From Streptomyces niger (GTDB lineage Bacteria > Actinomycetota > Actinomycetes > Streptomycetales > Streptomycetaceae): a stretch of 64,000 nt of DNA. The notes under the pieces are model-generated. The model had not been told where the DNA came from and made no database searches. It saw only the letters and a program-made list of their open reading frames with translations. The DNA lies in the NCBI RefSeq assembly GCF_000718305.1, contig NZ_JOFQ01000011.1, positions 124,001 to 188,000 of the forward strand. Reading direction: 5' to 3'. Every line of letters starts with the position of its first letter. Position 1 is the stretch's first letter. The translations under genes were made by a program, and so were the position numbers. This document shows, one piece after another, positions 37,375 to 49,851 of this stretch.

Positions 37375-38820
37375 GTGTCCTATCCGCCGACCGGCAGCGC
37401 GGCACCGCCCGCTCCGCCGCCGGCCCCGGAGCCGGCGGCGACCGGCACGCCCGGCGCCGAGCCCCCGCCGCCGTCCGGCGAACGCGCCGTATGGGCCGAA
37501 GGGCTGCGCCGGCTGCGCGCCGCGGCGACCACCGAGCCGGGCCGGCTGCGCATCATCGGCGCCGTACTCGCCGCGCTGGTCGTGCTGTTCGGCGCGCTGA
37601 CCGCCTGGCAGGTCACGGACCGGTCGGCCGCCGCGAGCGACGTCCTGGAGAGCAGCCAGCCGCTGAGCCGGGACGCGGCCGACATCTACCGCTCGCTGGC
37701 GGACGCCGACACCACGGCCGCCGGCGGCTTCCTGGCCGGCGACCGGGAGAGCGCGGCGTCCCGCAAGCGCTACACCGACGACATCGCCACCGCAGCCCGG
37801 CTGCTGGTCCGCGCGTCCGCCAACTCGCAGGGCTCGGCGACGGCCCGCGAAGAGATCGAGCGGCTGAACAACGGCCTGCCGCGGTACACGGGCCTGGTGG
37901 AGACCGCACGGATGTACAACCGCCAGGGCCTGCCGGTGGGCGGCGCCTACCTCCAGTACGCCAACGACCGGATGCGCACCCAACTGCTGCCGGCGGCGCG
38001 CCGGCTCTACGTCACCGAGACCGGCCGGCTCGACGCCGACCACGACGACGCCACCGCCTGGCCCTGGGTGGCGCTGGCCGCCGGGGTGCTGGCCGTCGGC
38101 GGGCTCGGCTGGGCGCAGCGCCGCACCTATCTGCGGACGAACCGGGTGTTCAACCGCGGGCTGCTGATCGCCACGGCCGCGTCCGCGGTGGCGCTGCTGT
38201 GGACGGTGGGCGGGCACGCGGTCGCCCGCGCGGGCCTGGACGACTCCATCGAGCACGGCGCCAGGTCGCTGCGGGTGCTGAACGAGGCGCGCATCGCGAC
38301 GCTGCAGGCGCGCGGCGACGAGAACCTGACGCTGGTGGCGCGCGGCGGCAAGGTCACCGGCCCCGACCAGCGGGACTTCTACGAGGTGGAGTACGCCGCG
38401 GGCATGCGGGACCTGGCCGGTACGGGGCAGGGCAGCGACGCGGCGGTGGGCGGCAAGCTGCGGGAGGCGCTGGCCCTCGCGGACGACGAGGCCGGCCGCG
38501 CGCCGGTGCGGGACGCCCTGAAGAACGTACGGGAGTGGCAGTCCCGGCACGCCGAGGCCCGTGCGGAGAACGACCGCGGCGACTACCAGGGCGCGCTGGC
38601 GAAGGTCATCGGCACCGACCGGCCCACGAAGGAGTCCTTCGACAAGGTGGAGGCGGCGCTGCAGCAGGCGCTCCGGCACGAGCAGGCCCAGTTCCGGGAC
38701 GCGGCGGAGGGCGGCCGGCGCGCGCTGACCGGGCTGGCCGGGGGCGCCGCCGTGCTGGCCGTACTGGCCGCCGCCGGCGCGGTGCTGGGCATCGGCCGCA
38801 GGCTGTCGGAGTACCGGTGA
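37375..38820 (+). CDS. glnX: GlnX-like membrane sensor protein
   Basis: 481 aa. Pro/Ala-rich cytoplasmic N terminus (1-60), then four transmembrane helices (IIGAVLAALVVLFGALTAW; PWVALAAGVLAVGGLGWA; LLIATAASAVALLWTVGG; ALTGLAGGAAVLAVLAAAG) flanking two large extracytoplasmic loops. This is the architecture of GlnX, which in mycobacteria and corynebacteria works with the binding protein GlnH and the kinase PknG to sense aspartate/glutamate or glutamine. GTG start with GGGGGAGG upstream. Directly followed by a GlnH-like gene with a GTGA overlap. It has no kinase or known signalling domain of its own. Confidence 0.82.
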   Translation: MSYPPTGSAAPPAPPPAPEPAATGTPGAEPPPPSGERAVWAEGLRRLRAAATTEPGRLRIIGAVLAALVVLFGALTAWQVTDRSAAASDVLESSQPLSRDAADIYRSLADADTTAAGGFLAGDRESAASRKRYTDDIATAARLLVRASANSQGSATAREEIERLNNGLPRYTGLVETARMYNRQGLPVGGAYLQYANDRMRTQLLPAARRLYVTETGRLDADHDDATAWPWVALAAGVLAVGGLGWAQRRTYLRTNRVFNRGLLIATAASAVALLWTVGGHAVARAGLDDSIEHGARSLRVLNEARIATLQARGDENLTLVARGGKVTGPDQRDFYEVEYAAGMRDLAGTGQGSDAAVGGKLREALALADDEAGRAPVRDALKNVREWQSRHAEARAENDRGDYQGALAKVIGTDRPTKESFDKVEAALQQALRHEQAQFRDAAEGGRRALTGLAGGAAVLAVLAAAGAVLGIGRRLSEYR

Positions 38821-39827
38821 CGGGAGCGGGGATGGGCATGCGCGCGCGAATGGCGGACCTCGGCTCCGCGCTGGCTCCGGTGGCCGCGGGCATGGGGGTG
38901 ATGGCGGCCGCGGCGGCGGTACTGGTGCCGGTGCTCAGCGGCGCCCCCGCCATACCGCCCCGGCCGCACGTCCCGGAGCCGCCCCGTACCGCCGTGGCCG
39001 CGCCCGCCGCCACCGGCTGCACGGAGGAGAACGCCGCGGAGAGCCTGCGCCCCTCCGACGCCGACGGCGACGCGGTGCAGCGGATCAAGAAGGCGGGCCG
39101 GCTGGTCGTCGGCGTCGACCAGAACAGCTACCGCTGGGGCTACCGCGACCCCGACAACCCCCGGAACCTCATCGGCTTCGACATCGACCTGGCGAAGGCC
39201 ATCGCCAAGGACATCCTCGGACCGCACCCGCACATCGTGTACCGCGCCATCCCCACCAACCAGCGCATCGACGCCGTACGGCAGCGCAGGGTGGACATGG
39301 TGGTGCGCACGATGACGATCAACTGCGAGCGCAAGGCGCAGGTCGCCTTCTCCACCTCCTACTTCAAGGCCGGCCAGCAGGTGCTCGCGCCGAAGAGGTC
39401 GTCGATCGACGCGTTCGACGACTCGCTGCGGGGAAAGAAGATCTGCACGGCGAGGGGATCGACGGGCGAGCAGCAGTTGAAACGGGAGGACCACGGCGCG
39501 GCGGTCATGACCGTGCCGAACCAGCTCGACTGCCTGGTGCGGCTCCAGCTGGGCGAGGCCGACGCCGTCGTGACGGACAGCGCGCTGGCCGCCGGCCAGG
39601 CCGCGCAGGACCCGACCGTCGAGCTCAAGGGCGAGCCGTTCAGCACGGACATGTACGGCGTGGCGATGAACAAGGAGGACGAGGACCTGGTGCGGCGGGT
39701 GAACAAGGTGCTGGAGGAGTACCGCGAAGGCGGCGCCGACAGCCCCTGGACGCACGCGTACGACAAGTGGCTCAAGGCCGACCTGCCGGGTGTCTCCGGC
39801 CCGCCGGCCCCGCAGTACAGCGACTGA
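38817..39827 (+). CDS. glnH: GlnH-like amino-acid binding protein
   Basis: 336 aa, extracytoplasmic solute-binding protein family 3: VGVDQNSYRWGYRDPDNP, LIGFDIDLAKAIAKDIL, RRVDMVVRTMTIN, ICTARGSTGEQQLK, and ADAVVTDSALAAG. A membrane-anchoring hydrophobic segment lies at ~20-42, and Cys68 follows a long linker. In related species GlnH binds acidic amino acids and signals through GlnX to PknG. Here the GTG start overlaps the glnX stop (GTGA), so the two are co-translated. Ligand unknown. The sixth to eighth downstream genes suggest a signal role rather than transport, as there is no permease or ATPase. Confidence 0.85.
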   Translation: MTGAGMGMRARMADLGSALAPVAAGMGVMAAAAAVLVPVLSGAPAIPPRPHVPEPPRTAVAAPAATGCTEENAAESLRPSDADGDAVQRIKKAGRLVVGVDQNSYRWGYRDPDNPRNLIGFDIDLAKAIAKDILGPHPHIVYRAIPTNQRIDAVRQRRVDMVVRTMTINCERKAQVAFSTSYFKAGQQVLAPKRSSIDAFDDSLRGKKICTARGSTGEQQLKREDHGAAVMTVPNQLDCLVRLQLGEADAVVTDSALAAGQAAQDPTVELKGEPFSTDMYGVAMNKEDEDLVRRVNKVLEEYREGGADSPWTHAYDKWLKADLPGVSGPPAPQYSD

Positions 39828-39833
39828 CCGGCC

Positions 39834-39860
39834 CGGCCGGACACGCCCCGCGTCCGGCCG
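39834..39860 (+). terminator. Hairpin between glnH and the coiled-coil gene
   Basis: 9-bp perfect stem (39834-39842 with 39852-39860), 9-nt loop. It may attenuate the operon at this point rather than end it. Confidence 0.5.
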
Positions 39861-39897
39861 TCCGCAGCGCACCGCACGCACTTTGGAGAGGTGATCG

Positions 39898-41181
39898 ATG
39901 GGGGTCCCTGGACCCGCCCCGGCCATGAGCCGCGACGAGGTGGACCGCGCCCTCGGCAGGCTCGGCGCCGAGCACGAGGCGATCGAGACCTCCCTGCTGG
40001 CACTGCAGGACCACGCGGGCCGCCGCCTCCTGGAAGGCGCCGAACTGACCGGGGTCACCAAGGACCGCTGGGCGACGGCCGAGCGGCAGATCACCGTGCT
40101 CTGGGCGCACTTCGAGGCGTACACCGCGGCGCTGGAGGCCGCCCGCGAGCTGCGCGCCCGCCGCCGCTGGCTCTCCCAGGACGACCTGGCCACCCTCACC
40201 GACATGCTGCGCGGCAACGGCGTCACCGTCTCCGGCGGATCGGCCGCCGGCAGCCCCGGCCGGCTCAGCGAACAGCTCAGCCTGGAGACGCTGGTCGACC
40301 GGATGAACGGGCTGTACGCGCGCGCCCTGGACGTCATCGTCAGCGCCGACTCCGTATGGACCGCGCTGCCCGCCCGCATCGACCTGCTCGCCGCCGAACT
40401 GCGCCGCACCCGCTCCCTCGCGCACTCCGTCGGCGTCCGCCCCGGCGAACACCCCTCCGGCGACGACCTGGAGGACATCACCGGCGAACTGGACCGGCTG
40501 CGCGCCGAAGTGCTCACCGACCCGCTCGCCTTCTGGGTGCCCGCCACCGACGCCAGCGCCGCGCCCGGTGGCGGCCGCCCCGACACCGACCGGTACGACC
40601 GTGCCGCGCGCGCCCTGGAGGACGTCCGGCGCGAGATCGAGGCGGTCCTCGCCGTGCGACAGGACGCCGAGCGGCGGCTGATGCAGGTGCGCGACCTGCT
40701 CTCGCGCGCCGACCGTACGCTCACCGAGGCGCGGCAGGCGCGCGGCGAGGTGCTGGCGAAGATCGCCGCATCCGAGGTGCCGGCCGTCTCCGGCCCGTCC
40801 ACCACGCTGCACGAACAGCTCGCCACCGCCGCCGAGTACCGCAGACGCGCCCGGTGGCACCTGCTGTCGCCGCTGCTGGAGAGCCTGGAGGAGCGCGCCG
40901 AGGAGGAGCTGCTGCGCGCCCGCGAGTCGCTGACCGCGGTGACCGCGCCACTGGCCGTCCGCGCCGAGCTGCGCGGCCGGCTCGACGCGTACAAGGCCAA
41001 GGTGGCGCGGCACGGCCTGGCCGAGGACCTGCTGCTGGTCGAGCGGTACGACATCGCCCGCCGGATGCTGTGGAGCGCGCCCTGCGACCTGCGCGCCGCC
41101 GAACACGCCGTACTGCGCTACCAGCACGCGGTGGCCGAGGCGCTGGCCGCCGGACAGCAGGACCACGAGGGGGAGTCATGA
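39898..41181 (+). CDS. Coiled-coil protein of the PknG locus
   Basis: 427 aa, no known family recognised. Mostly alpha-helical with heptad-like stretches at ~30-80, ~150-195, ~235-285 and ~310-400, rich in Glu, Arg, Leu and Ala; no signal peptide or membrane segment, so cytoplasmic. A Gly/Ser linker lies near residue 115. The ATG follows GGAGAGG, and the stop overlaps the pknG start (ATGA). Its position between the sensor pair and the kinase suggests a scaffold that links them, by inference. Confidence 0.8.
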   Translation: MGVPGPAPAMSRDEVDRALGRLGAEHEAIETSLLALQDHAGRRLLEGAELTGVTKDRWATAERQITVLWAHFEAYTAALEAARELRARRRWLSQDDLATLTDMLRGNGVTVSGGSAAGSPGRLSEQLSLETLVDRMNGLYARALDVIVSADSVWTALPARIDLLAAELRRTRSLAHSVGVRPGEHPSGDDLEDITGELDRLRAEVLTDPLAFWVPATDASAAPGGGRPDTDRYDRAARALEDVRREIEAVLAVRQDAERRLMQVRDLLSRADRTLTEARQARGEVLAKIAASEVPAVSGPSTTLHEQLATAAEYRRRARWHLLSPLLESLEERAEEELLRARESLTAVTAPLAVRAELRGRLDAYKAKVARHGLAEDLLLVERYDIARRMLWSAPCDLRAAEHAVLRYQHAVAEALAAGQQDHEGES

Positions 41182-43841
41182 CCACCGCGCCGGCCACCGC
41201 CTGCCAGCGGCAGGAGTGCGGGGGCGTGTACGAGGACGTCGGCGGCGGCGAACTGTACTGCGACACCTGCGGCATGGCGCCGGTCGTCTCGCCGACCGGC
41301 ATGGTGGCCTCGCCGCCGACCGGTGTCGCGGGCGCGGCCCGCTCCTCGGCCGGGTCCGGTTCCGCGCGGGGCTCCGGCAGTACCGGCTCCGCGCCCTCCG
41401 CCCGCTCCTCCGGCTCTTCCGGCTCCCGGCGCTCGGTCTCCGGGCGCCTCTCGCGCTCCCTGTCCGGGCCGTCGACCCAGCTGGTGTCCGTACGCAGCGG
41501 AAGCTCGGGGCAGGGCTCGTCGTCCGGCTCCGGATCCGGCTCCGGCGCGGGGCGCGGGCGGCTCGGCGCCGGGCTGGTGGCGGTGCCGGACGTGCCGCGG
41601 CCCGACCCCCGCGCGGTGGTGCTGGAGAACCCCGAGGTCCCCGAGCGCAAGCGGTTCTGCAGCCGGAGCGACTGCGGGGCGCCGGTGGGCCGGGCACGCA
41701 GCGGACGCCCCGGCCGTACGGAGGGGTTCTGCACCAAGTGCGGCCACCCGTACAGCTTCGTGCCGAAGCTGCGCGCCGGTGACGTGGTGCACGGCCAGTA
41801 CGAGGTCGCCGGCTGCCTGGCGCACGGCGGCCTGGGCTGGATCTACCTCGCGGTGGACCGGGCGGTCGCCGACCGGTGGGTGGTGCTCAAGGGCCTGCTG
41901 GACACCGGCGACGAGGAGGCGCTCGCGGTCGCGGTCTCCGAGCGCCGCTTCCTCGCCGAGATCGAGCACTCCAACATCGTGCGGATCTACAACTTCGTCG
42001 AACACCTCGACCAGGCGACGGGCAGCCTCGACGGCTACATCGTCATGGAGTACGTCGGCGGCAAGTCCCTCAAGGAGATCGCCAACGAGCGGCGCACGCC
42101 CCAGGGCCGGCGCGACCCGCTCCCGGTCGAGCAGGCCTGCGCGTACGGCATCGAGGCACTGGCGGCGCTGGGCCACCTGCACAGCCGCAACCTGCTGTAC
42201 TGCGACTTCAAGGTCGACAACGCCATCCAGCAGGACGACCAGCTCAAGCTGATCGACATGGGCGCGGTGCGCCGGATGGACGACCACGAGAGCGCGATCT
42301 ACGGCACGGTCGGCTACCAGGCACCCGAGGTCGCCGAGGTCGGCCCGTCCGTCGCCTCCGACCTCTACACCGTCGCGCGCACCCTCGCCGTCCTCACCTT
42401 CGACTTCCAGGGCTACACCAACGTCTTCGCGGACTCCCTGCCGGACCCCGAGCACATCGAGGTCTTCCGCCGGTACGAGTCCTTCTACCGGCTGCTCGTC
42501 CGGGCCACCGACCCCGACCCGGCCCGCCGGTTCGCCTCCGCCGAGGAGATGGCCGAGCAGCTGACGGGCGTACTGCGGGAGGTCGTGGCGCTGCAGAGCG
42601 GCGAGCAGCGGCCCGCGCTGTCCCAGCTGTTCGGCCCCGAACTGCGCGTCGTGGACACCGAGCTGATGCCGGTCGTGGAGGGCGACACCTCGCTGCTGGG
42701 CGGCCGGGCCACCCCGCCCCGCCGCCGGTTCCGGCGCCGGCAGCAGGCCGCTGCGCTCCCGGGCCGGGGCCCTTCGGCGGGGCTCGTGGGCGCCGCTCCG
42801 GCCACGCCGTCGATCCCGGCGCAGGTGTCGTACGAGGTCTCCCCGCTGCCCGGCCACGGGAGCCCGCCCGTGCTGCGCGCCCTGGACACGTCGGCCACCG
42901 TGCTGGCGCTGCCCGCGCCGCGGGTGGACCCCGGCGACCCGAACGCCGGCTTCCTCGCCGGCCTGCTGGCCGCGGCGCCCGCCGAACTGGTCGCCGCACT
43001 CCGCTCGGCGCCCGCCGATTCGCTGGAGGTCCGGCTGCGCGACCTGCGGGCCCGGCTGGAGATGGGCGACGGGCCCGAGGCCCGGCGGGTGCTGCGGGAG
43101 ATCGAGACGGACCCGCTGGCCGAGTGGGCGTCGGACTGGCGGGTGGTCTGGAACCGCGGCCTGGTGGCCCTGGCCGCCGGCGACAAGGAAACGGCGGCGC
43201 TGTCCTTCGACGCGGTGTACGACGCGTTCCCCGGCGAGCCCGCGCCCAAGCTGGCGCTGGGCGTCTGCGCCGAGGTGCTGGGCCAGCTGGACAACGCCGC
43301 CGAGTACTACCACCTGGTGTGGACCACCGACCACAGCTACGTGAGCGCGGCGTTCGGGCTGGCCCGGGTGCGGCTCGCGGCCGGTGACCGGGCGGGCGCG
43401 GTGCGTGCGCTGGAGGCCGTTCCCGAGTCCTCGATCCACTTCACCGCGGCCCGCATCGCCGCGGTACGGGCCCGGCTGCGGCAGCGCCCGGCCGGCGAAC
43501 CGCTGCTGGCCGACCTCCGGGCCGCGGCCCGGGAGATCGAGCGGCTGGCGGACTTCGGCCTGGACGCGCAGCGCCGCGAGACGCTGACCACGGAAGTGCT
43601 GGGCTGCGCCCTGGACTGGGTGCTGTCCGGGCGTACCGGGGAGCGGGTGCCCGGCACGCCGGAGGCGGAGCGGCCGGCGGACGGCCGCCCGGCGCTGCTC
43701 GGCTGTGCGCTGGACGAGCGCGGACTGCGCTTCGGCCTGGAGCGGTCCTACCGGCTGCTCGCCAGGCTGGCCCAGCGCGGTGATGAGAGGATCGAACTGG
43801 TGGAGCGGGCCAACCGCTTCCGCCCCAGGACGTGGGTGTGA
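41178..43841 (+). CDS. pknG: Serine/threonine kinase PknG with rubredoxin and TPR domains
   Basis: 887 aa. N-terminal zinc ribbon (CQRQECGGVY ... YCDTCG), a long Ser/Gly-rich linker to ~145, a rubredoxin-like domain (FCSRSDCGAPVG ... FCTKCGHPYSF) that senses redox in PknG, a kinase domain ~200-460 and a TPR domain to the C terminus. Kinase residues: glycine loop AHGGLGWIY, Lys238 in VVLKGLL, catalytic Asp343 in LLYCDFKVDN (non-RD, as in M. tuberculosis PknG), and Asp360 in IDMGAV. In related species PknG phosphorylates FHA proteins that control 2-oxoglutarate use. Coupled to the gene before (ATGA) and followed after 1 nt by the phosphatase. Confidence 0.93.
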   Translation: MTTAPATACQRQECGGVYEDVGGGELYCDTCGMAPVVSPTGMVASPPTGVAGAARSSAGSGSARGSGSTGSAPSARSSGSSGSRRSVSGRLSRSLSGPSTQLVSVRSGSSGQGSSSGSGSGSGAGRGRLGAGLVAVPDVPRPDPRAVVLENPEVPERKRFCSRSDCGAPVGRARSGRPGRTEGFCTKCGHPYSFVPKLRAGDVVHGQYEVAGCLAHGGLGWIYLAVDRAVADRWVVLKGLLDTGDEEALAVAVSERRFLAEIEHSNIVRIYNFVEHLDQATGSLDGYIVMEYVGGKSLKEIANERRTPQGRRDPLPVEQACAYGIEALAALGHLHSRNLLYCDFKVDNAIQQDDQLKLIDMGAVRRMDDHESAIYGTVGYQAPEVAEVGPSVASDLYTVARTLAVLTFDFQGYTNVFADSLPDPEHIEVFRRYESFYRLLVRATDPDPARRFASAEEMAEQLTGVLREVVALQSGEQRPALSQLFGPELRVVDTELMPVVEGDTSLLGGRATPPRRRFRRRQQAAALPGRGPSAGLVGAAPATPSIPAQVSYEVSPLPGHGSPPVLRALDTSATVLALPAPRVDPGDPNAGFLAGLLAAAPAELVAALRSAPADSLEVRLRDLRARLEMGDGPEARRVLREIETDPLAEWASDWRVVWNRGLVALAAGDKETAALSFDAVYDAFPGEPAPKLALGVCAEVLGQLDNAAEYYHLVWTTDHSYVSAAFGLARVRLAAGDRAGAVRALEAVPESSIHFTAARIAAVRARLRQRPAGEPLLADLRAAAREIERLADFGLDAQRRETLTTEVLGCALDWVLSGRTGERVPGTPEAERPADGRPALLGCALDERGLRFGLERSYRLLARLAQRGDERIELVERANRFRPRTWV

Positions 43842-43842
43842 G

Positions 43843-45078
43843 ATGGCAGTGACAGGTCCTTCCCGGTGCCCGGGCTGTGGCGAGCCGCTGGAGTCGGGGG
43901 ACAACTTCTGCGGCGTGTGCGGAGCCGACCTCTCCGGCACGGCGGACGGGAACGCCGCGGCCGGGGACCACCCGACGCTCGCGCTGACCCCGCAGGGCGC
44001 CCCTCGGACGGCGCCCGGTGACGGGGTGCCCGGCGGCGCGTACGGCGGGCCCGGGGCCGGGCTGCCCGACGAGGCGTACCGGGCGGCGCCCCCGCCCGCG
44101 CCGGAGACCCGGCTGCCGGACGCCGGCGTCCCCGCCGACCCCCGCGAGACCCTCGCCGTCCCGACCTGCGTGGCCTGCCGGACCGGCGCCGTCGACCAGG
44201 ACGGCTACTGCGAGCGCTGCGGCCACGCCCAGCCCCGCGAGCGCGACCACTTCGAGCGGGCGCTGACGCGCGTCGCGGCGGTCAGCGACCGCGGCTATCG
44301 CCACCACCGCAACGAGGACTTCTTCGCCGTCGCGGACACGACGCTCGTCGACGGCTCCCCGGCCGTGCTCGCCGTGGTCTGCGACGGCGTCTCCTCCGCG
44401 ACCCGGCCCGACGACGCGTCCCGGGCCGCGGCCGAGACGGCCGCCGAGGCGCTGGTGACGGCCCTCCCCCGGGAGCCGCAGCCGCAACAGGCCATGCACG
44501 ACGCGATCGTGGCCGCCGCCAAGGCCGTCGACGCGCTCGCGGCCGCGCCCGACGGGCCGCAGGAACACGACCCGTACCGCCGCCAGAACGCGCCGGCCTG
44601 CACGCTCGTCGCGGCCGTCGCGGCGGGCGGGGTGCTGACCGTCGGCTGGATCGGCGACAGCCGGGTGTACTGGATCCCCGACGACCGCACGGCGCCCGGC
44701 GCCCGGCTCACCGAGGACGACTCCTGGGCCGCGCAGATGGTGGCGAACAACCTGATGACGGAGGCGGAGGCGTACGCCGACGAACGGGCCCACGCCATCA
44801 CCGGCTGGCTCGGCGCCGACGCGTACGAACTCCAGCCGCACACCAAGGCCTTCCGGCCGGACCGCCCGGGCGTGGTCGTGGTGTGCACCGACGGCCTGTG
44901 GAACTACACCGAGGCCGCGGACGAACTGGCCGCCGTGCTGCCCCTGGACGCGGGCGAACGCCCGCTGGACGGCGCCCGAACGCTGGTGCACCACGCTCTG
45001 GACAGCGGGGGCCACGACAACGTAACAGTGGCCGTGGTGCCGTTCCCGGCCCCCGTACGCGGGGCAGGATCGGCCTGA
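43843..45078 (+). CDS. PP2C-type serine/threonine phosphatase with zinc ribbons
   Basis: 411 aa. Two N-terminal zinc ribbons (CPGCGEPL ... FCGVCG and CVACRTGAV ... YCERCG), separated by a Pro/Gly-rich linker, then a PP2C domain with all metal motifs: RHHRNEDFF, VVCDGVSS, GWIGDSRVYW, CTDGLWNY, GGHDNVTVAVV. It likely reverses PknG phosphorylation. It starts one nucleotide after the pknG stop, so kinase and phosphatase are made from the same message. Cytoplasmic, no membrane segment. Confidence 0.93.
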   Translation: MAVTGPSRCPGCGEPLESGDNFCGVCGADLSGTADGNAAAGDHPTLALTPQGAPRTAPGDGVPGGAYGGPGAGLPDEAYRAAPPPAPETRLPDAGVPADPRETLAVPTCVACRTGAVDQDGYCERCGHAQPRERDHFERALTRVAAVSDRGYRHHRNEDFFAVADTTLVDGSPAVLAVVCDGVSSATRPDDASRAAAETAAEALVTALPREPQPQQAMHDAIVAAAKAVDALAAAPDGPQEHDPYRRQNAPACTLVAAVAAGGVLTVGWIGDSRVYWIPDDRTAPGARLTEDDSWAAQMVANNLMTEAEAYADERAHAITGWLGADAYELQPHTKAFRPDRPGVVVVCTDGLWNYTEAADELAAVLPLDAGERPLDGARTLVHHALDSGGHDNVTVAVVPFPAPVRGAGSA

Positions 45079-45082
45079 GCCA

Positions 45083-45141
45083 CCGCGGCGACGCCGCGGC
45101 ACAGCAACGCGGTACGAACAACGAGCAACGAGCAACGAGCA
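45083..45141 (+). repeat. Hairpin plus heptamer repeat after the phosphatase gene
   Basis: A 7-bp hairpin (CCGCGGC/GCCGCGG, 45083-45099) follows the stop closely. Then ACGAACA and three ACGAGCA heptamers run 45114-45141. The 169-nt gap (45079-45247) has no gene; it may be an internal terminator and a promoter for the next two genes. Confidence 0.6.
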
Positions 45142-45247
45142 ACAAATGGTCCGGCACCTGGGGAGGTGCCGACGGGGGGACGGCCTGGGGTACTTCCGCC
45201 CGCCCGCATGCCGACGAGGTACGACGGAGCGCCAAGGAGCGGAACAG

Positions 45248-46600
45248 ATGGCCAACTTCTCGAAATCCACGGTGCCGCAGTTCTCCGTGGAGGTGTACCA
45301 GAACGAGTACCTCCCCGAGGGTGGCCGCGAGGTGAACGCCATCGTCACGGTCACCGCCACCGGCGGCGGCACGTCGGGCGGCCGGCCGCTCGCCGACGCC
45401 GGGCAGCCGTCCGCCGCGCGGGGTGCGCCGGACGCCGCCGTGGTCGTCATGGTCGACTGTTCGGGCTCGATGGAGTACCCGCCGGCCAAGATGCGCAACG
45501 CGCGGGAGGCGACCGCCGCGGCGATCGACACCCTGCGGGACGGGGTGGCCTTCGCGGTGGTGGCCGGCACCCACCAGGCCGCCGAGGTCTACCCCGGCGG
45601 CGGCCGCCTCGCGGTGGCCTCACCCGCCACCCGCGGCCAGGCCAAGGAGGCGCTGCGGCGGCTGCGGTCCGGCGGCGGCACGGCGATCGGCACCTGGCTG
45701 CGGCTGGCCGACCGGCTGCTGGCCTCCTCCGACGCGGCGATCCGGCACGGCATCCTGCTCACCGACGGCCGCAACGAGCACGAGTCGTCCGAGGACCTGC
45801 GGGCCACGCTGGACGCCTGCGCCGGGCGGTTCACCTGCGACGCGCGCGGGGTGGGCACGGACTGGGAGGTCGCGGAGGTCACCGGCATCGCCTCGGCCCT
45901 GCTGGGCAGCGCCGACATCGTCGCCGATCCGGCCGGGCTGGCGGCCGACTTCACGCGGATGATGGAGACCGCGATGGGCAAGGAGGTCGCGGACGTCGGG
46001 CTGCGGGTGTGGACGCCGCAGGGCGCCGAGGTCCAGTTCGTGAAGCAGGTCGCGCCGACGGTCGAGGACCTCACCGGCCGGCGCACCGACGCCGGGCCGC
46101 GGGCCGGCGACTACCCCACCGGCTCCTGGGGCGACGAGTCCCGCGACTACCACGTGTGCGTACGGGTCCCGGACGCCGGCGTCGGCCGGGAGATGCTGGC
46201 CGCGCGGGTGGCACTGGTGCTCCCTGTGCCGAGCGGCGAGGCGCCCCGGACGCTCGCGCAAGGCCTGGTACGGGCGGTGTGGACGTCGGACCTGGCCGCA
46301 TCGACGCAGATCAACCCACAGGTGGCGCACTACACGGGCCAGGCGGAACTGGCACGGGCCATCCAGCAGGGGCTGGATGCGCGTAAGTCCGGAGATATGG
46401 ATGGAGCGACCGCCCGGCTCGGCCGTGCCGTACAGCTCGCGAGCGCCTCCGGCAACGAGGACACTGCGAAACTGCTTGCGAAGGTGGTGGACGTCGTCGA
46501 TGCCACGACCGGTACTGTGCGGCTGAAGGCGAAGGTCGCGGAAGCGGACGAGATGACACTCGAAACACGCTCAACCAAGACTGTTCGCGTCAAAAAGTGA
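45248..46600 (+). CDS. von Willebrand factor A domain protein
   Basis: 450 aa. VWA domain from ~60 to ~250 with a complete MIDAS site: DCSGSM (DxSxS), Thr in GGGTAIGTW, and Asp in LLTDGRNEHES. N-terminal beta domain (FSVEVYQNEYLPEGGREVNAIVTV) and a C-terminal region with a helical repeat (ARKSGDMDGATARLGRAVQL). No signal peptide; cytoplasmic. AAGGAG precedes the ATG. Together with the kinase and phosphatase before it, it matches the composition of TerY-P triads (VWA + PP2C + kinase) described in tellurium/stress loci. Metal-dependent partner binding is likely. Confidence 0.9.
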   Translation: MANFSKSTVPQFSVEVYQNEYLPEGGREVNAIVTVTATGGGTSGGRPLADAGQPSAARGAPDAAVVVMVDCSGSMEYPPAKMRNAREATAAAIDTLRDGVAFAVVAGTHQAAEVYPGGGRLAVASPATRGQAKEALRRLRSGGGTAIGTWLRLADRLLASSDAAIRHGILLTDGRNEHESSEDLRATLDACAGRFTCDARGVGTDWEVAEVTGIASALLGSADIVADPAGLAADFTRMMETAMGKEVADVGLRVWTPQGAEVQFVKQVAPTVEDLTGRRTDAGPRAGDYPTGSWGDESRDYHVCVRVPDAGVGREMLAARVALVLPVPSGEAPRTLAQGLVRAVWTSDLAASTQINPQVAHYTGQAELARAIQQGLDARKSGDMDGATARLGRAVQLASASGNEDTAKLLAKVVDVVDATTGTVRLKAKVAEADEMTLETRSTKTVRVKK

Positions 46601-46662
46601 CACCCGAGTGACGAGTGAGACGTAACGCCGTCGGAAGACGGTACGGAGGGGGACATACCGAC

Positions 46663-48159
46663 ATGCCGACCTGCCCGAACGGCCACCAGTCAGTGGCCGA
46701 AGACTGGTGCGAGGTGTGCGGCCACCGCATGGCGGGCCCTGTCGCTTCACCGCCTCCTCCGCCCCCCGGCTTCCCCGGCGCCCCGGCCGCCCCCGCGCCT
46801 CAGCAGGGCGGGTACGGCTTCCCGCCGCCCCCGCCCGGGTCAGCGCCTCCGCCGGGCGGCTACGGCTTCCCGCCGCCGCCCGGCTCCGGTCAGGCCCCCG
46901 GGCCCGGCACCGGCCAGGCCGAGCTGTGCCCGCAGTGCGGTACGCCGCGCGAGGCCATGGCGCCGTTCTGCGAGGAGTGCCGGTACAACTTCCTGACGCA
47001 CTCCTCGACCTCCGCCTCGTACCCGGCGCCGCAGCAGCAGTCCGCGCCGCCGCCCGGCTTCCCGCCCCAGCCCGGCGGACCGGACCAGTACGAGTACCAG
47101 GGCTCGCGCCCCTCGCAGATGAACCGGCCCGCCGAGCCGCTCGGCCCCGGGCAGCAGTCGGGCCCCGCCGGCCCGCCGCAGCCGCCGTTCGGCGACGCGA
47201 CACCCCCGCCCTACGGTGACGCGGGTCCGCCGCCCCAGCCGCAGGGCCCGCAGCCGCAGGCGCCGTCCCAGGGCGGCGACGACTGGCTGCTGCCGCCGCC
47301 CGGCGGTTCGCAGGCCCCCGGCGCGCCGCAGGGCGTGCCGCAGCAGAGCCCGCCCGGCCAGCCCGGTCCCGGTCAGCCGGGCCCTGGTCAGGCCGCCCCT
47401 GGTCAGCCCGGCCCGTACGGGCAGCCGGGGCCGCAGGGCTTCCCGCCCCAGGGGCCCGGTACGCAGGGTCCCGGTACGCAGGGGCCGGGCCCGCACGGGC
47501 CGGGGCCGCAGGGGCCCTTCGAGCAGCCCGCTCCGCCGCCTCCGCCGTACGGGCAGTCCGCGCCCCCGGCGCCGCCCGGTCCGTACGACTCGCAGCAGTC
47601 CGGCCCGTACGAGCAGCAGCAGCCGTTCCCCCAGCAGCAGCCGCCGCCGTACGACCAGCCGGGCCAGCAGGGTCAGCCGGGCCAGCAGCAGGCCGGGACC
47701 GGTGAGCAGCCGTGGCCCCCGGGCGGCGGCGCTCCCGGCCCCGCGGCGACCGGCGCCGGCTGGGTCGCGGTGATCGCCCCGGACCGTGAGTACTTCACGG
47801 CGATGATGGGTCGCAGCGGCCCGGAGGCCGCCGGCCTGAACCTGCCCGCCTACTCCCCCGAGCAGCAGCTGCCGCTCTCCGGCCAGCAGGTCACCATCGG
47901 CCGCCGTCGACACAGCACGGGCGAGTCGCCGGACATCGACCTGGCGCGGTCGCCGGAGGACCCGGGCGTCTCGCACCAGCACGCGATGCTGGTCCAGCAG
48001 CCGGACGGCGGCTGGGCCGTGGTGGACCAGAACTCCACCAACGGCACGACCATCAACGGCGGCGAGGACCCGATCCAGCCGTACGTCCCGATCCCGCTCC
48101 AGGAGGGCGACCGGGTGCACGTCGGCGCCTGGACGACGATCACGGTCCGCCGCGGCTGA
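46663..48159 (+). CDS. FHA-domain protein with zinc ribbons and Pro/Gln/Gly-rich linker
   Basis: 498 aa. N-terminal ribbons CPNGH ... WCEVCG and LCPQCGTPRE ... FCEECR, a long low-complexity PGQPGPGQ-type linker (~100-380), and a C-terminal FHA domain (~400-498): LSGQQVTIGRRR, SPDIDLA, VSHQHAMLV, DQNSTNGTTIN. FHA domains bind phosphothreonine, so this is a natural reader of PknG phosphorylation. In corynebacteria and mycobacteria the PknG target OdhI/GarA is an FHA protein with an N-terminal ETTSVF motif; that motif is absent here. The 3' end of the gene is repeated in tandem after the stop. Confidence 0.92.
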   Translation: MPTCPNGHQSVAEDWCEVCGHRMAGPVASPPPPPPGFPGAPAAPAPQQGGYGFPPPPPGSAPPPGGYGFPPPPGSGQAPGPGTGQAELCPQCGTPREAMAPFCEECRYNFLTHSSTSASYPAPQQQSAPPPGFPPQPGGPDQYEYQGSRPSQMNRPAEPLGPGQQSGPAGPPQPPFGDATPPPYGDAGPPPQPQGPQPQAPSQGGDDWLLPPPGGSQAPGAPQGVPQQSPPGQPGPGQPGPGQAAPGQPGPYGQPGPQGFPPQGPGTQGPGTQGPGPHGPGPQGPFEQPAPPPPPYGQSAPPAPPGPYDSQQSGPYEQQQPFPQQQPPPYDQPGQQGQPGQQQAGTGEQPWPPGGGAPGPAATGAGWVAVIAPDREYFTAMMGRSGPEAAGLNLPAYSPEQQLPLSGQQVTIGRRRHSTGESPDIDLARSPEDPGVSHQHAMLVQQPDGGWAVVDQNSTNGTTINGGEDPIQPYVPIPLQEGDRVHVGAWTTITVRRG

Positions 48160-48300: not shown

Positions 48301-48327
48301 GTCCGGCCCCGTCAGCCGGGGCCGGAC
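48301..48327. terminator. Hairpin overlapping the methyltransferase stop
   Basis: Perfect 10-bp stem (48301-48310, 48318-48327). The TGA of the convergent methyltransferase gene lies in the loop. Likely terminates both FHA and methyltransferase transcripts. Confidence 0.65.
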
Positions 48328-49349
48328 AGCGGCCAGCGGTGCGGGCCGTCCGGCGCGTCCAGCCACGCCCACTGCCGGTCACCCGCCACCGTCACCCCGA
48401 ACCGCTCCCGGTGCGGCCGGTGCGCCACGCGCCACAGCTCGTATGCCGCCTCCGGGTCCAGCGTTCCGGCGCTCAGCGTGCGCAGGAAGTGGAAGCGCTC
48501 GTCGCGCAGCGCCTCCGTCGGCAGCGCGGCGGTCGCGGCCTGCGCCCGGTCGTGCCCGTCGTCCGCCCGCGCGCCGCGGGGCCGGTCCGCTGAGCCCTCG
48601 ACCGCGCCGCGCAGCCGCAGGAAGTACGCCGGAGTGGACAGGAACCGGCCCTCCGCGTGCTCCGGCCCGGTCACCCGCAGCAGGACCAGCCCGGTGGCCA
48701 GCGGCGTGAGGATCAGCCCGCCGGTCCGGCACTGCGCGACCCACGCCGGCGGCACGGACGGCAGCCGGCAGGTCGCCATGATCCGGTCGAACGGCGCCCG
48801 CTCCGGACAGCCCCGCGCGCCGTCCCCGGTGATCACCCGGGGCCGGTACCCGGCCGCCGCCAGGTGCTCCCGGGCGGGCCCGGTGATGTCCTCGTCGAGG
48901 TCCACGGTGGTGACCCGCGCGTCGCCGAGCCGGTGCGAGAGCAGCGCCGCGTTGTAGCCCGTGCCCGCGCCGACCTCCAGCACCTCGTGCCCGTCCTCGA
49001 CCCGCAGCTCGTCCAGCATCGTGGCCATCAGCGACGGCTGGCTGCTGGAGGAGACCGGCTCCCCGTCGCGCACGTGCGTGGCCAGCGCGCTGTCCGCGTA
49101 CGCCCCGCGCAGCCACTCCTCGCGGCGCTCCGGGTCGGGATGGTCGGCGGCCCGCCGCTCGTACCCGCCGACCACGCCCACGTAGTAGACGGGGACGAAC
49201 AGATGCCGGGGCACCTCGGCGAACGCCGCCCGCCAGCGCGGGTCCGTGAGCCCGCCGCCCCGCGTGATCAGCCGTACCAGCCCGGCCCGGGCCGTCGCGG
49301 CCCCGGCGGCGTACGGATCGCTCTGTGGTCCCGTACCGTCACCGCTCAT
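48312..49349 (-). CDS. SAM-dependent methyltransferase, PCMT-like
   Basis: 345 aa. Class I fold with VLEVGAGTGYNAALLSHRL (motif I), TVDLDEDI (post I), FDRIMATCRLPSVP (motif II/III). The SSSSQPSLMATML stretch and overall order match protein-L-isoaspartate O-methyltransferases, which repair damaged proteins, but members of this actinobacterial branch also modify peptides. Substrate unknown. ATG 49349 has GGAGG only one base before it, which is too close for good initiation, so the true start may be a few codons downstream. Divergent from the globin gene. Confidence 0.85.
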   Translation of the reverse strand: MSGDGTGPQSDPYAAGAATARAGLVRLITRGGGLTDPRWRAAFAEVPRHLFVPVYYVGVVGGYERRAADHPDPERREEWLRGAYADSALATHVRDGEPVSSSSQPSLMATMLDELRVEDGHEVLEVGAGTGYNAALLSHRLGDARVTTVDLDEDITGPAREHLAAAGYRPRVITGDGARGCPERAPFDRIMATCRLPSVPPAWVAQCRTGGLILTPLATGLVLLRVTGPEHAEGRFLSTPAYFLRLRGAVEGSADRPRGARADDGHDRAQAATAALPTEALRDERFHFLRTLSAGTLDPEAAYELWRVAHRPHRERFGVTVAGDRQWAWLDAPDGPHRWPLSGPG

Positions 49350-49446
49350 ACCTCCACTGTGCTACGCACCCGCCGGTGCCGCCTTCACCGGTTTCTCCGG
49401 TCCTACGACTCCCGTACTCGGCCGGTGCGTCTGAGACCATGGAGGG

Positions 49447-49851
49447 GTGAACGAGATTCCGCGCGGCACGCTTCAGGACCAGACCTTCTACGAGCAGGTC
49501 GGTGGCGAGGAAACCTTCCGGCGTCTGGTGCACCGCTTCTACCAGGGCGTTGCGGAGGACCCGCTGCTCCGGCCCATGTACCCGGAGGAGGACCTCGGCC
49601 CGGCCGAGGAGCGCCTCGCGCTGTTCCTCATGCAGTACTGGGGCGGCCCGCGTACGTACAGCGAGGGCCGCGGCCACCCCCGGCTGCGGATGCGGCACAT
49701 GCCCTTCACCGTCGACCGCGCGGCGCACGACGCCTGGCTGCGGCACATGCGGGACGCGGTGGACTCCCTGGAGCTGGCGCCCGAGCACGAGACCCAGCTG
49801 TGGAACTACCTCACGTACGCGGCCGCCACGATGATCAACACGGACGGCTGA
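49447..49851 (+). CDS. Truncated hemoglobin, group II (trHbO)
   Basis: 134 aa 2-on-2 globin. FYEQVGGEETFRRLVHRFY is the A/B-helix start, PLLRPMYP and LMQYWGGPRTYSE are characteristic of group II, and RGHPRLRMRHMPF carries the proximal heme His. Group II globins such as HbO bind oxygen and help with redox or nitric-oxide chemistry. GTG start. A strong terminator and then a 28-bp duplication follow. Confidence 0.95.
   Translation: MNEIPRGTLQDQTFYEQVGGEETFRRLVHRFYQGVAEDPLLRPMYPEEDLGPAEERLALFLMQYWGGPRTYSEGRGHPRLRMRHMPFTVDRAAHDAWLRHMRDAVDSLELAPEHETQLWNYLTYAAATMINTDG

Follow-up and report, generated by a model that had tools for sequence, protein, structure and literature searches.

PknG is a long-studied tuberculosis kinase to which the nutrient route is still being worked out, and ArnA/ArnB is a starvation switch of archaea that acts on motility. 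In mycobacteria and corynebacteria, PknG belongs to a GlnH–GlnX–PknG operon, and residues R147, T162, and W232 provide the side-chain contacts of the Asp/Glu pocket of GlnH (PMC6069109). In Sulfolobus, ArnA uses its zinc finger to dock on ArnB that is not phosphorylated. Once a kinase with a TPR-like region has phosphorylated the C-terminal domain of ArnB, the FHA domain binds, and PP2A reverses the process (PMC12852372, PMC7472852). The complex is not impaired when T343 and T353 of ArnB are changed, and the ArnB-like architecture is widespread, most cases not being tied to such multiple phosphorylation (PMC12852372). A third arrangement, the TerY-P triad, combines a TerY-like VWA protein and a PP2C with a kinase whose zinc ribbon is C-terminal (PMC11090510, citing Anantharaman 2012).

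The present study concerns a seven-gene cluster at positions 37375-48159 of a 64,000-nucleotide stretch of Streptomyces niger DNA (the window), in which GlnX, GlnH, CC, PknG, PP2C, VWA, and FHA follow one another in that order, all on the + strand and all within the stated positions (Table 1). The cluster had been described as running without a break. This holds at CC/PknG, which overlap by 4 bases, and at PknG–PP2C, which are 1 base apart, but is slightly too strong elsewhere: by the chosen starts, gaps of 70, 169, and 62 bases separate GlnH–CC, PP2C–VWA, and VWA–FHA, respectively, and internal promoters are therefore possible. A promoter scan of the locus found none, and two terminator-like sites were seen versus 1.3 expected. 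Zinc ribbons had been reported on three members, and this is confirmed: PP2C and the FHA protein carry two each, and PknG has one in addition to its rubredoxin. Each ribbon cysteine is conserved in at least 27 of the 31 aligned rows and in up to all of them. The ribbons fit one shared assembly.

Table 1. Features of the seven-gene cluster (coordinates are positions in the window)
Feature	Coordinates	Strand	Description or basis
GlnX	37375..38820	+	membrane signal protein, family NF058618
GlnH	38832..39827	+	extracytoplasmic amino-acid-binding protein, N-terminal anchor, start uncertain; SBP_bac_3
CC	39898..41181	+	helical, scaffold-like; conserved C-terminal ELRG...PCDL region
PknG	41178..43841	+	N-terminal Zn ribbon, Ser-rich linker, rubredoxin, kinase, TPR
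PknG extra N-terminal Zn ribbon	41202..41270	+	sequence, compared across loci
PP2C phosphatase, two N-terminal Zn ribbons	43843..45078	+	PP2C_2 and NF033484
VWA, ArnB-like	45248..46600	+	VWA_3, VWA_3_C; close to 4fx5
VWA C-terminal tail ETRSTKTVRV, candidate phospho-Thr site (T443, T445)	46562..46591	+	conservation
FHA protein, ArnA-like: two Zn ribbons, Pro/Gln-rich linker, C-terminal FHA	46663..48159	+	

The arrangement is beyond chance, since gene order and strand are kept in all 80 Streptomyces-type loci (L020-L099; 79 named Streptomyces and one actinomycete MAG). All seven genes are matched in 68 of these, and 11 of the remaining 12 loci stop near a contig end; the VWA gene is truncated in L023 and L033, where the other genes are still present, and was not found in L069, although its other module genes persist. 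In a second, selected sample of 40 further loci, PknG has PP2C, VWA, and FHA as its neighbors in 26, and 21 of the 26 carry all seven genes. The PknG–PP2C–VWA–FHA set occurs in nine families, that of Streptomyces included, and the full seven-gene set in six of the eight others. Thus, the neighborhood is not limited to this strain, and the proposed combination, a GlnX/GlnH/PknG system with added phosphatase, VWA, and FHA genes, is conserved far beyond it. Among the matches listed from 394 genomes of the class, 89 genomes hold both PknG_TPR and VWA_3_C, which lie within 15 kb on one contig in 77. In the open-licence PMC literature, no title or abstract was found that describes the module; the one paper there to name PknG, vWA, FHA, and phosphatase together, PMC1262709, does not describe it in the passages concerned.

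This conservation bears on whether the genes are simply neighbors without shared function, linked by descent or expression only. The gaps of 169 and 62 bases would leave room for separate promoters, and the sensor pair evolves partly apart from the rest: pairwise-distance correlations reach 0.53-0.82 among the five core genes (CC, PknG, PP2C, VWA, and FHA) and 0.66 between GlnX and GlnH, compared with 0.24-0.52 between GlnX and the core and -0.06 to 0.28 between GlnH and the core, suggesting two evolutionary blocks. The placement of GlnX–GlnH also varies in the further loci: the pair may precede the core, follow it, or be convergent with it. However, linkage survives in nine families, including after rearrangement in two of the groups compared (f86 and f43), and of eight flanking genes tested, seven had no match beyond L020-L099 and L119, a locus of the same genus, and the remaining one had further matches in L110, L112, L136, and L147. 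In L124, every junction is overlapping or shorter than 10 bases by the chosen starts. We consider linkage without shared function very improbable.

The sensor pair is clearly related to that of the mycobacterial operon. GlnX matches NF058618 above the curated cut-off (E 1.7e-144) and by hydropathy displays four hydrophobic segments, two of them marginal; against the equivalog model for PknG-activating GlnX it scores 183 bits, below the cut-off of 780. The best PDB match of GlnH is M. tuberculosis GlnH (6h2t, E 1.5e-54). In the GlnH pocket, R147 and T162 are kept in the window copy and in all 80 aligned rows (79 of L020-L099 plus L119), and W232 is replaced by Q in the window copy, being Q in 79 rows and H in 1. 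The Asp/Glu-specific triad is thus incomplete, and because W232 is replaced, aspartate sensing by GlnH is not assured. A canonical Asp/Glu lipoprotein is not upheld either, as the window copy also lacks a canonical lipobox; a simple, start-dependent lipobox test was positive for 28 of the 77 complete GlnH copies of L020-L099 and for 11 of 13 others listed. Elsewhere in the same genome lies a GarA with the ETTS motif (L121, 1477-2346; 188.9 bits versus a cut-off of 200), which bears its own zinc ribbon and whose motif reads, by eye, SETTSTI. In all, the cluster shares with the mycobacterial/corynebacterial operon described in PMC6069109 the GlnX family, a GlnH-like binding protein, a PknG with rubredoxin, kinase, and TPR domains, and a GarA encoded elsewhere; it differs in having four more genes (CC, PP2C, VWA, and FHA), the extra N-terminal zinc ribbon on PknG, and the replaced W232 of GlnH.

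Of the added proteins, CC had no match in Pfam or NCBIfam at a threshold of E 0.01, and the best 120 of its 2567 homologs are all annotated as "hypothetical" or "uncharacterized" except for one "collagen-like protein." It had been labeled a coiled-coil protein, and it is mostly helical, but the AlphaFold2 model (mean pLDDT 93.7) predicts a well-ordered fold, for which no match was found among PDB folds (best E 0.24). PknG itself has PknG_TPR (287 bits, residues 567-885), rubredoxin (103 bits), and kinase domains, a match to 2pzi at E 1.3e-159, and the catalytic Lys, Asp, Asn, and DxG Asp kept in 31/31 aligned rows. Its N-terminal zinc ribbon is present in all 31 further loci with VWA, its fourth Cys being replaced in 3, and in only 1 of 9 without VWA, although co-loss of the two is not significant on the tree (3/4 independent pairs, p 0.25). 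No invariant Thr stood out as an FHA dock in 60 rows of the PknG Ser-rich linker. By eye, Ser/Arg motifs such as RRSVSGRLS recur in this linker. The metal-site aspartates of PP2C are each conserved in at least 30 of the 31 rows.

The kinase, phosphatase, and VWA genes had been likened to TerY-P, in which case they would act, beside the PknG sensor, as a switch that senses metals or damage and has ties to tellurite resistance or defense. The same three protein types do adjoin in TerY-P, with a Ser/Thr kinase, a PP2C, and zinc ribbons (PMC11090510). However, the kinase anatomy does not agree: TerY-P kinship calls for a C-terminal ribbon, whereas the ribbons here are N-terminal and the kinase ends in the PknG_TPR domain. 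Nor does the VWA family lend support, since the protein is 4fx5-like and matches ArnB by profile. TerY_C was not among the 15 families found in 12 VWA proteins, and was not found in this genome, although control genomes gave none either. Membership in TerY-P was rejected on kinase anatomy and gains no support from the families found in the VWA proteins, and we regard a stress triad of this type as improbable.

A better match for the VWA and FHA proteins, judged from their sequences, is the ArnB/ArnA pair. The VWA protein comprises N-terminal strands, a VWA domain with MIDAS, a β-sandwich region, and a C-terminal helical domain, and the MIDAS residues are kept in all 30 rows with letters. It matches 4fx5 with 461 bits over nearly its whole length, and by profile it matches ArnB (E 1.4e-9) over the VWA domain, with 4cn8 and ITIH4 scoring above ArnB. 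PDB 4FX5, which is Catenulispora acidiphila caci_2163, is the VWA protein of the seven-gene module, because the VWA sequence of L100, encoded within the same module, is identical to it over 439 residues. The fold of 4fx5 shares its tripartite structure with the ArnB paralog according to PMC6509490, where 4FX5 is treated, in the passages that concern it, by fold comparison only and without gene context. The AlphaFold2 model of the window VWA protein was poor (pLDDT 51.9), and its TM-scores were therefore ignored; a Foldseek search with this poor model listed 8s05 and 5a8j right after 4fx5.

The FHA domain spans residues 410-488, with S437 and N460 kept in 31/31 rows, and the protein lacks the ETTSVF motif of OdhI/GarA, as had been noted. 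Its profile is collinear with ArnA over ribbon, linker, and FHA domain (E 9.2e-10 and 1.4e-9), a score that owes part to linker composition (bias 14 bits). On a single stretch, ArnA leads GarA narrowly (37.2 versus 35.6 bits), and plant 1uht scores above ArnA and RNF8 above GarA. The possibility that the FHA protein is a diverged GarA was set aside: a GarA with ETTS lies elsewhere in the genome, so the window protein is not a degenerate copy of it, and the layout aligns with that of ArnA, the score difference being small. Comparison with the Sulfolobus ArnA–ArnB system, its kinases ArnC/ArnD, and PP2A (PMC6509490, PMC7472852, PMC12852372) extends the likeness to a Zn-ribbon–linker–FHA protein, a VWA protein with a β-sandwich and a helical C-terminal domain, a Ser/Thr phosphatase, a Ser/Thr kinase whose repeats are TPR or TPR-like, and a nutrient signal. 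In contrast, the window cluster is bacterial, has a dedicated transmembrane sensor, employs a PP2C and not a PP2A, and carries two zinc ribbons on the FHA protein with further ribbons on the kinase and phosphatase.

The C-terminal tail of the VWA protein is a candidate target for the kinase. The tail motif is present in 67/67 full-length VWA proteins of L020-L099, and across families T445 is invariant (31/31) and T443 is kept in 25/31. Outside L020-L099, 9 of 31 tails lack the strict motif. Five of these belong to second copies, one to L141, where the VWA gene is short, and three are f3 variants in which STKTVR is nevertheless retained. T445 could, however, be structural rather than phosphorylated: by Pfam, the C-terminal domain extends to residue 442, and the structural model of VWA is of low quality.

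Starting from the genes, residues, conserved linkage, and sequence relation to ArnB/ArnA observed directly, we infer a ligand, a phosphorylation site, a mode of zinc-ribbon docking, a role for CC, and an output for a single nutrient-responsive phospho-switch composed of the GlnX–GlnH sensor pair and the five-gene core, a reading that we hold to be evenly balanced between right and wrong. GlnH would bind an extracellular amino-acid-like ligand, and GlnX would relay the signal across the membrane to the PknG TPR domain, as proposed for mycobacteria. PknG would then phosphorylate the conserved VWA tail; the FHA protein, tethered loosely to VWA by its zinc ribbons, would clamp its FHA domain onto the phospho-threonine; and PP2C would reset the switch. 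CC would serve as a scaffold that links PknG to the core. GarA probably remains a substrate of PknG, in which case one sensor would feed both metabolism, through GarA, and a second output, through VWA–FHA.

Alternatively, the locus could serve the classic PknG–GarA pathway, with PP2C, VWA, and FHA only tuning PknG or the dephosphorylation of GarA and no separate VWA–FHA output. The genome encodes a GarA with the ETTS motif and its own zinc ribbon, GarA control is attributed to PknB and PknG (PMC12321487), the mycobacterial set is plainly related to GlnX, GlnH, and PknG here, and the FHA profile gives GarA a score nearly equal to that of ArnA. However, mycobacterial-type loci manage without PP2C, VWA, and FHA beside PknG, two genomes carry both the larger set and a mycobacterial-type locus, and the core has its own ArnA/ArnB-like anatomy. 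We consider such a helper role less likely than the phospho-switch.

In the midpoint-rooted PknG tree, the mycobacterial-type three-gene operon is nested among loci with the larger set, which suggests that it was reduced from that set. A broader reading can be put forward only tentatively, and we judge it somewhat doubtful when its four parts are taken as one claim: that PknG was ancestrally the kinase of an ArnA/ArnB-type nutrient phospho-switch in many large-genome actinobacteria; that the mycobacterial/corynebacterial GlnX–GlnH–PknG operon is a relic keeping only the GarA branch, having lost CC, PP2C, VWA, FHA, and the PknG zinc ribbon; that zinc ribbons on kinase, phosphatase, and FHA protein form a common docking code for a VWA hub; and that the FHA–VWA switch is an ancient nutrient-signaling device common to archaea and bacteria. 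Thus, the textbook PknG amino-acid-sensing operon may be a cut-down copy of a seven-gene unit. If the usual form of PknG is a seven-part machine, a native substrate and an antagonist phosphatase may have been in full view in Streptomyces and its relatives. The solved structure 4FX5 gains a genetic context, and an archaeal motility switch becomes a testable model for a nutrient response in antibiotic-producing bacteria.

The seven-gene locus originally predicted to join an amino-acid sensor to a kinase, phosphatase, VWA and FHA set is a real, conserved system in the 8.49-Mb, high-GC host genome, in which the window is contig 11, 124001-188000; the closest relatives that bear a name belong to Streptomyces. 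Its parts are of known kinds, and as far as literature searches reach, their combination is undescribed. The best solved relatives of GlnH and PknG are the Mycobacterium tuberculosis proteins of the same names (E 1.5e-54 and 1.3e-159), and that of the VWA protein is PDB 4fx5 (461 bits). The host genome has a single PknG_TPR and a single VWA_3_C match, both inside the module. The window copy of GlnX has four hydrophobic segments, two of them marginal. The helical protein CC could be assigned to no family by family search; it has 2567 homologues and, among the 120 matches listed, the named ones are “hypothetical” or “uncharacterized” except one “collagen-like.” Repeats between the PP2C and VWA genes are possibly an internal control region, and the methyltransferase- and truncated globin-like frames beyond the module are matched in 48/80 and 58/80 Streptomyces-type loci, respectively.

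Features of the module locus and of the GarA contig (window positions unless another locus is named)
Feature	Position	Strand	Remark
GlnX, GlnH, CC, PknG, PP2C, VWA, FHA (7 genes)	37375-48159	+	in that order
Repeats in the PP2C-VWA gap	45120-45172		AACGAGC direct repeats, short and seen by eye, plus an inverted repeat of 9 pairs
Open frames 3' of the module	48312-49851	-, +	methyltransferase (-), truncated globin (+); named by reading frames, not family search
GarA homologue, contig 44	L121:1477-2346	-	Zn ribbon, SETTSTI motif, FHA

A gene-neighborhood survey, proposed as a check on the original prediction, places the module well beyond one strain, in Streptomyces-type loci and in other families. 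The 80 loci (L020-L099; 79 named Streptomyces and one actinomycete MAG) are the best 80 of at least 533 confirmed PknG relatives. Gene order and strand are unchanged in all of them, and 68 have matches to every one of the seven genes; in 11 of the 12 incomplete loci a contig ends within about 550 bases on the side of the missing gene. VWA_3_C and PknG_TPR were each present in 38 of the 40 same-genus genomes shown, our own included. Forty further loci (20 + 20) were hand-picked from PknG and VWA matches, so that their counts describe a nonrandom sample: PknG, PP2C, VWA and FHA occur together in 26 (seven each in families f3 and f86, four in f87, two each in f5 and f9, and one each in f1, f43, f80 and f106), with all seven genes in 21 of these, from f1, f3, f5, f9, f43, f86 and f87. 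The VWA gene of L141 is short (195 residues). CC had no match in L131, L132, L134, L139 and L143 with a first profile; a second recovers it in L134, L139 and L143 and also picks up its C-terminal part in a protein encoded upstream in four of the Streptomyces second copies, with a weak match in one. Fourteen of the forty lack the four-gene set: six are second copies in Streptomyces, five belong to f5 and have just GlnX-GlnH-PknG, two are from f86 (one of them a second copy) and the last is from f110.

In a less biased sample of 394 genomes drawn evenly across the class, VWA_3_C is found in 101 and PknG_TPR in 143. Among the matches listed, at least 89 genomes have both and at least 77 have them no more than 15 kb apart on the same contig, counts that are lower bounds since the PknG_TPR matches listed (150 rows) cover 133 of the 143 genomes; in 11 of the other 12 genomes the two lie on separate contigs. 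Several f87 genomes (G347:C1:7094857, G330, G590 and others) have VWA_3_C proteins with no PknG_TPR gene nearby among the matches listed, which may belong to other kinase loci. In a phylum sample of 296 genomes, VWA_3_C occurs in 10: nine of the same genus (own included) and G209, of another class, where it could lie on a stray contig of the 270-contig assembly.

The order CC-PknG-PP2C-VWA-FHA is constant in all loci read, while GlnX-GlnH lies before it (Streptomyces, f3, f5, f9, f87, f80), after it (f86) or convergent to it (f43). Spearman correlations of pairwise distances are 0.53-0.82 inside the five-gene core and 0.66 between GlnX and GlnH, versus -0.06 to 0.28 for GlnH and 0.24 to 0.52 for GlnX against the core. 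Because of this placement and these correlations, we read the module as an exchangeable sensor pair joined to a five-gene core. Eight flanking genes were tested over L020-L148: outside the Streptomyces-type loci, seven have matches only in the same-genus locus L119, and the eighth in L119, L110, L112, L136 and L147.

The PknG-linked GlnH of Actinomycetales is predicted to be Asp/Glu-specific in the available part of PMC6069109. In the 80 Streptomyces-type sequences R147 and T162 are kept throughout and W232 is replaced by Q in 79 and by H in one; in f3, R147 is E in 5/7. Asp/Glu specificity of the Streptomyces-type protein should not be assumed. The window genome also encodes a GarA homologue (188.9 bits, cut-off 200), and the reading of the module FHA protein as a diverged GarA was set aside. 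The homologue carries a Zn ribbon of its own, which the short GarA/OdhI sequences are not known to have. Given its presence, PknG could still act on GarA, and the module FHA protein is something else.

The PknG tree (46 rows, midpoint rooted) labels as full any locus with PP2C and FHA. The five three-gene operons of f5, a family called mycobacteria-like from PknG scores and gene set, form a single clade (100/100); its sister group is the full-set f5 pair L124/L125, and the branch joining the two has 100/99. Most of the remaining rows are full loci, the starred branches require at least four label changes, and long branches come together among second copies. Since the three-gene clade is nested within mostly full loci, the simplest reading is that GlnX-GlnH-PknG is a reduced form. 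The L124/L125 genomes (G651, G572) carry the full module and separate GlnX-GlnH-PknG operons (L144, L147, L148); G651 has two more PknG copies (L145, L146) with no GlnX or GlnH match nearby. PknG bears an additional N-terminal Zn ribbon in 31/31 loci where a VWA gene is present, three of them with another residue in place of the fourth Cys, versus 1/9 where it is absent; co-loss of ribbon and VWA is supported by 3/4 independent pairs only (p 0.25). Four second PknG-like kinases of Streptomyces (L113, L116, L117, L118) bear this ribbon and adjoin a VWA protein whose frame ends, by eye, in a Zn-ribbon-like stretch; the upstream protein has a CC-like C-terminal region (weak in L113), and PP2C and FHA are without a match at these loci. 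A PknG-like kinase, a VWA protein and a GlnX-like protein that scores weakly (48 bits) occur at a second f86 locus (L127, G513), where GlnH, PP2C and FHA have no match.

The FHA profile (alignment A4, 21 rows) matches ArnA of Sulfolobus (PDB 8s05, E 9.2e-10; 5a8i, E 1.4e-9) across Zn ribbon, linker and FHA domain, in a single stretch of 37.2 bits (E 2.9e-8, composition bias 14 bits); plant 1uht ranks above ArnA (9.4e-11), and RNF8 (1e-8) and GarA (8.5e-8) below. The VWA profile (alignment A1, 12 rows) matches ArnB (8s05_A, E 1.4e-9) within the VWA domain alone, ranking behind 4fx5, 4cn8 and ITIH4. The VWA protein of L100 and 4fx5 are identical over 439 residues; 4fx5 (caci_2163 of Catenulispora acidiphila) is described as sharing the tripartite structure of the ArnB paralog (PMC6509490, in part). 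The available portions of the papers make no mention of a PknG-operon setting for this gene. As described in the accessible text of PMC12852372 and PMC7472852, the ArnA Zn finger docks on unphosphorylated ArnB, phosphorylation of the ArnB C-terminal domain by ArnC makes FHA binding tight, and PP2A undoes this nutrient-dependent switch.

The activity residues of the module are intact across the aligned families: the PknG Lys, Asp, Asn and DxG Asp and the FHA Ser and Asn in 31/31 rows, the PP2C metal-site aspartates in 30 or 31/31, and the VWA MIDAS residues in all 30 rows with letters in a 31-row alignment. The VWA C-terminal tail ETRSTKTVRV is kept, with at most small changes, in 67/67 full-length copies of the Streptomyces-type loci. 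Across families T445 is present in 31/31 rows, a count that includes the short L141; S442 is present in 30/31 and T443 in 25/31. The strict motif is found in 22/31 loci outside L020-L099, the nine misses being three f3 variants that retain STKTVR, five second copies and L141. The ArnB phosphopeptides, in the published text available, look similar to this tail by eye. From the ArnA/ArnB matches, the Sulfolobus mechanism and this likeness, we propose that PknG would be the ArnC-like kinase of the module, PP2C the phosphatase that resets the switch, VWA its hub and FHA its reader. The VWA protein is cut to 97 residues in L023 and 140 in L033, both among the 68 loci with all genes matched, and the rest of the module stays; the rest is likewise present in Streptomyces locus L069, with no VWA gene found in its 22.6 kb. 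These three loci amount to a natural experiment on the need for VWA.
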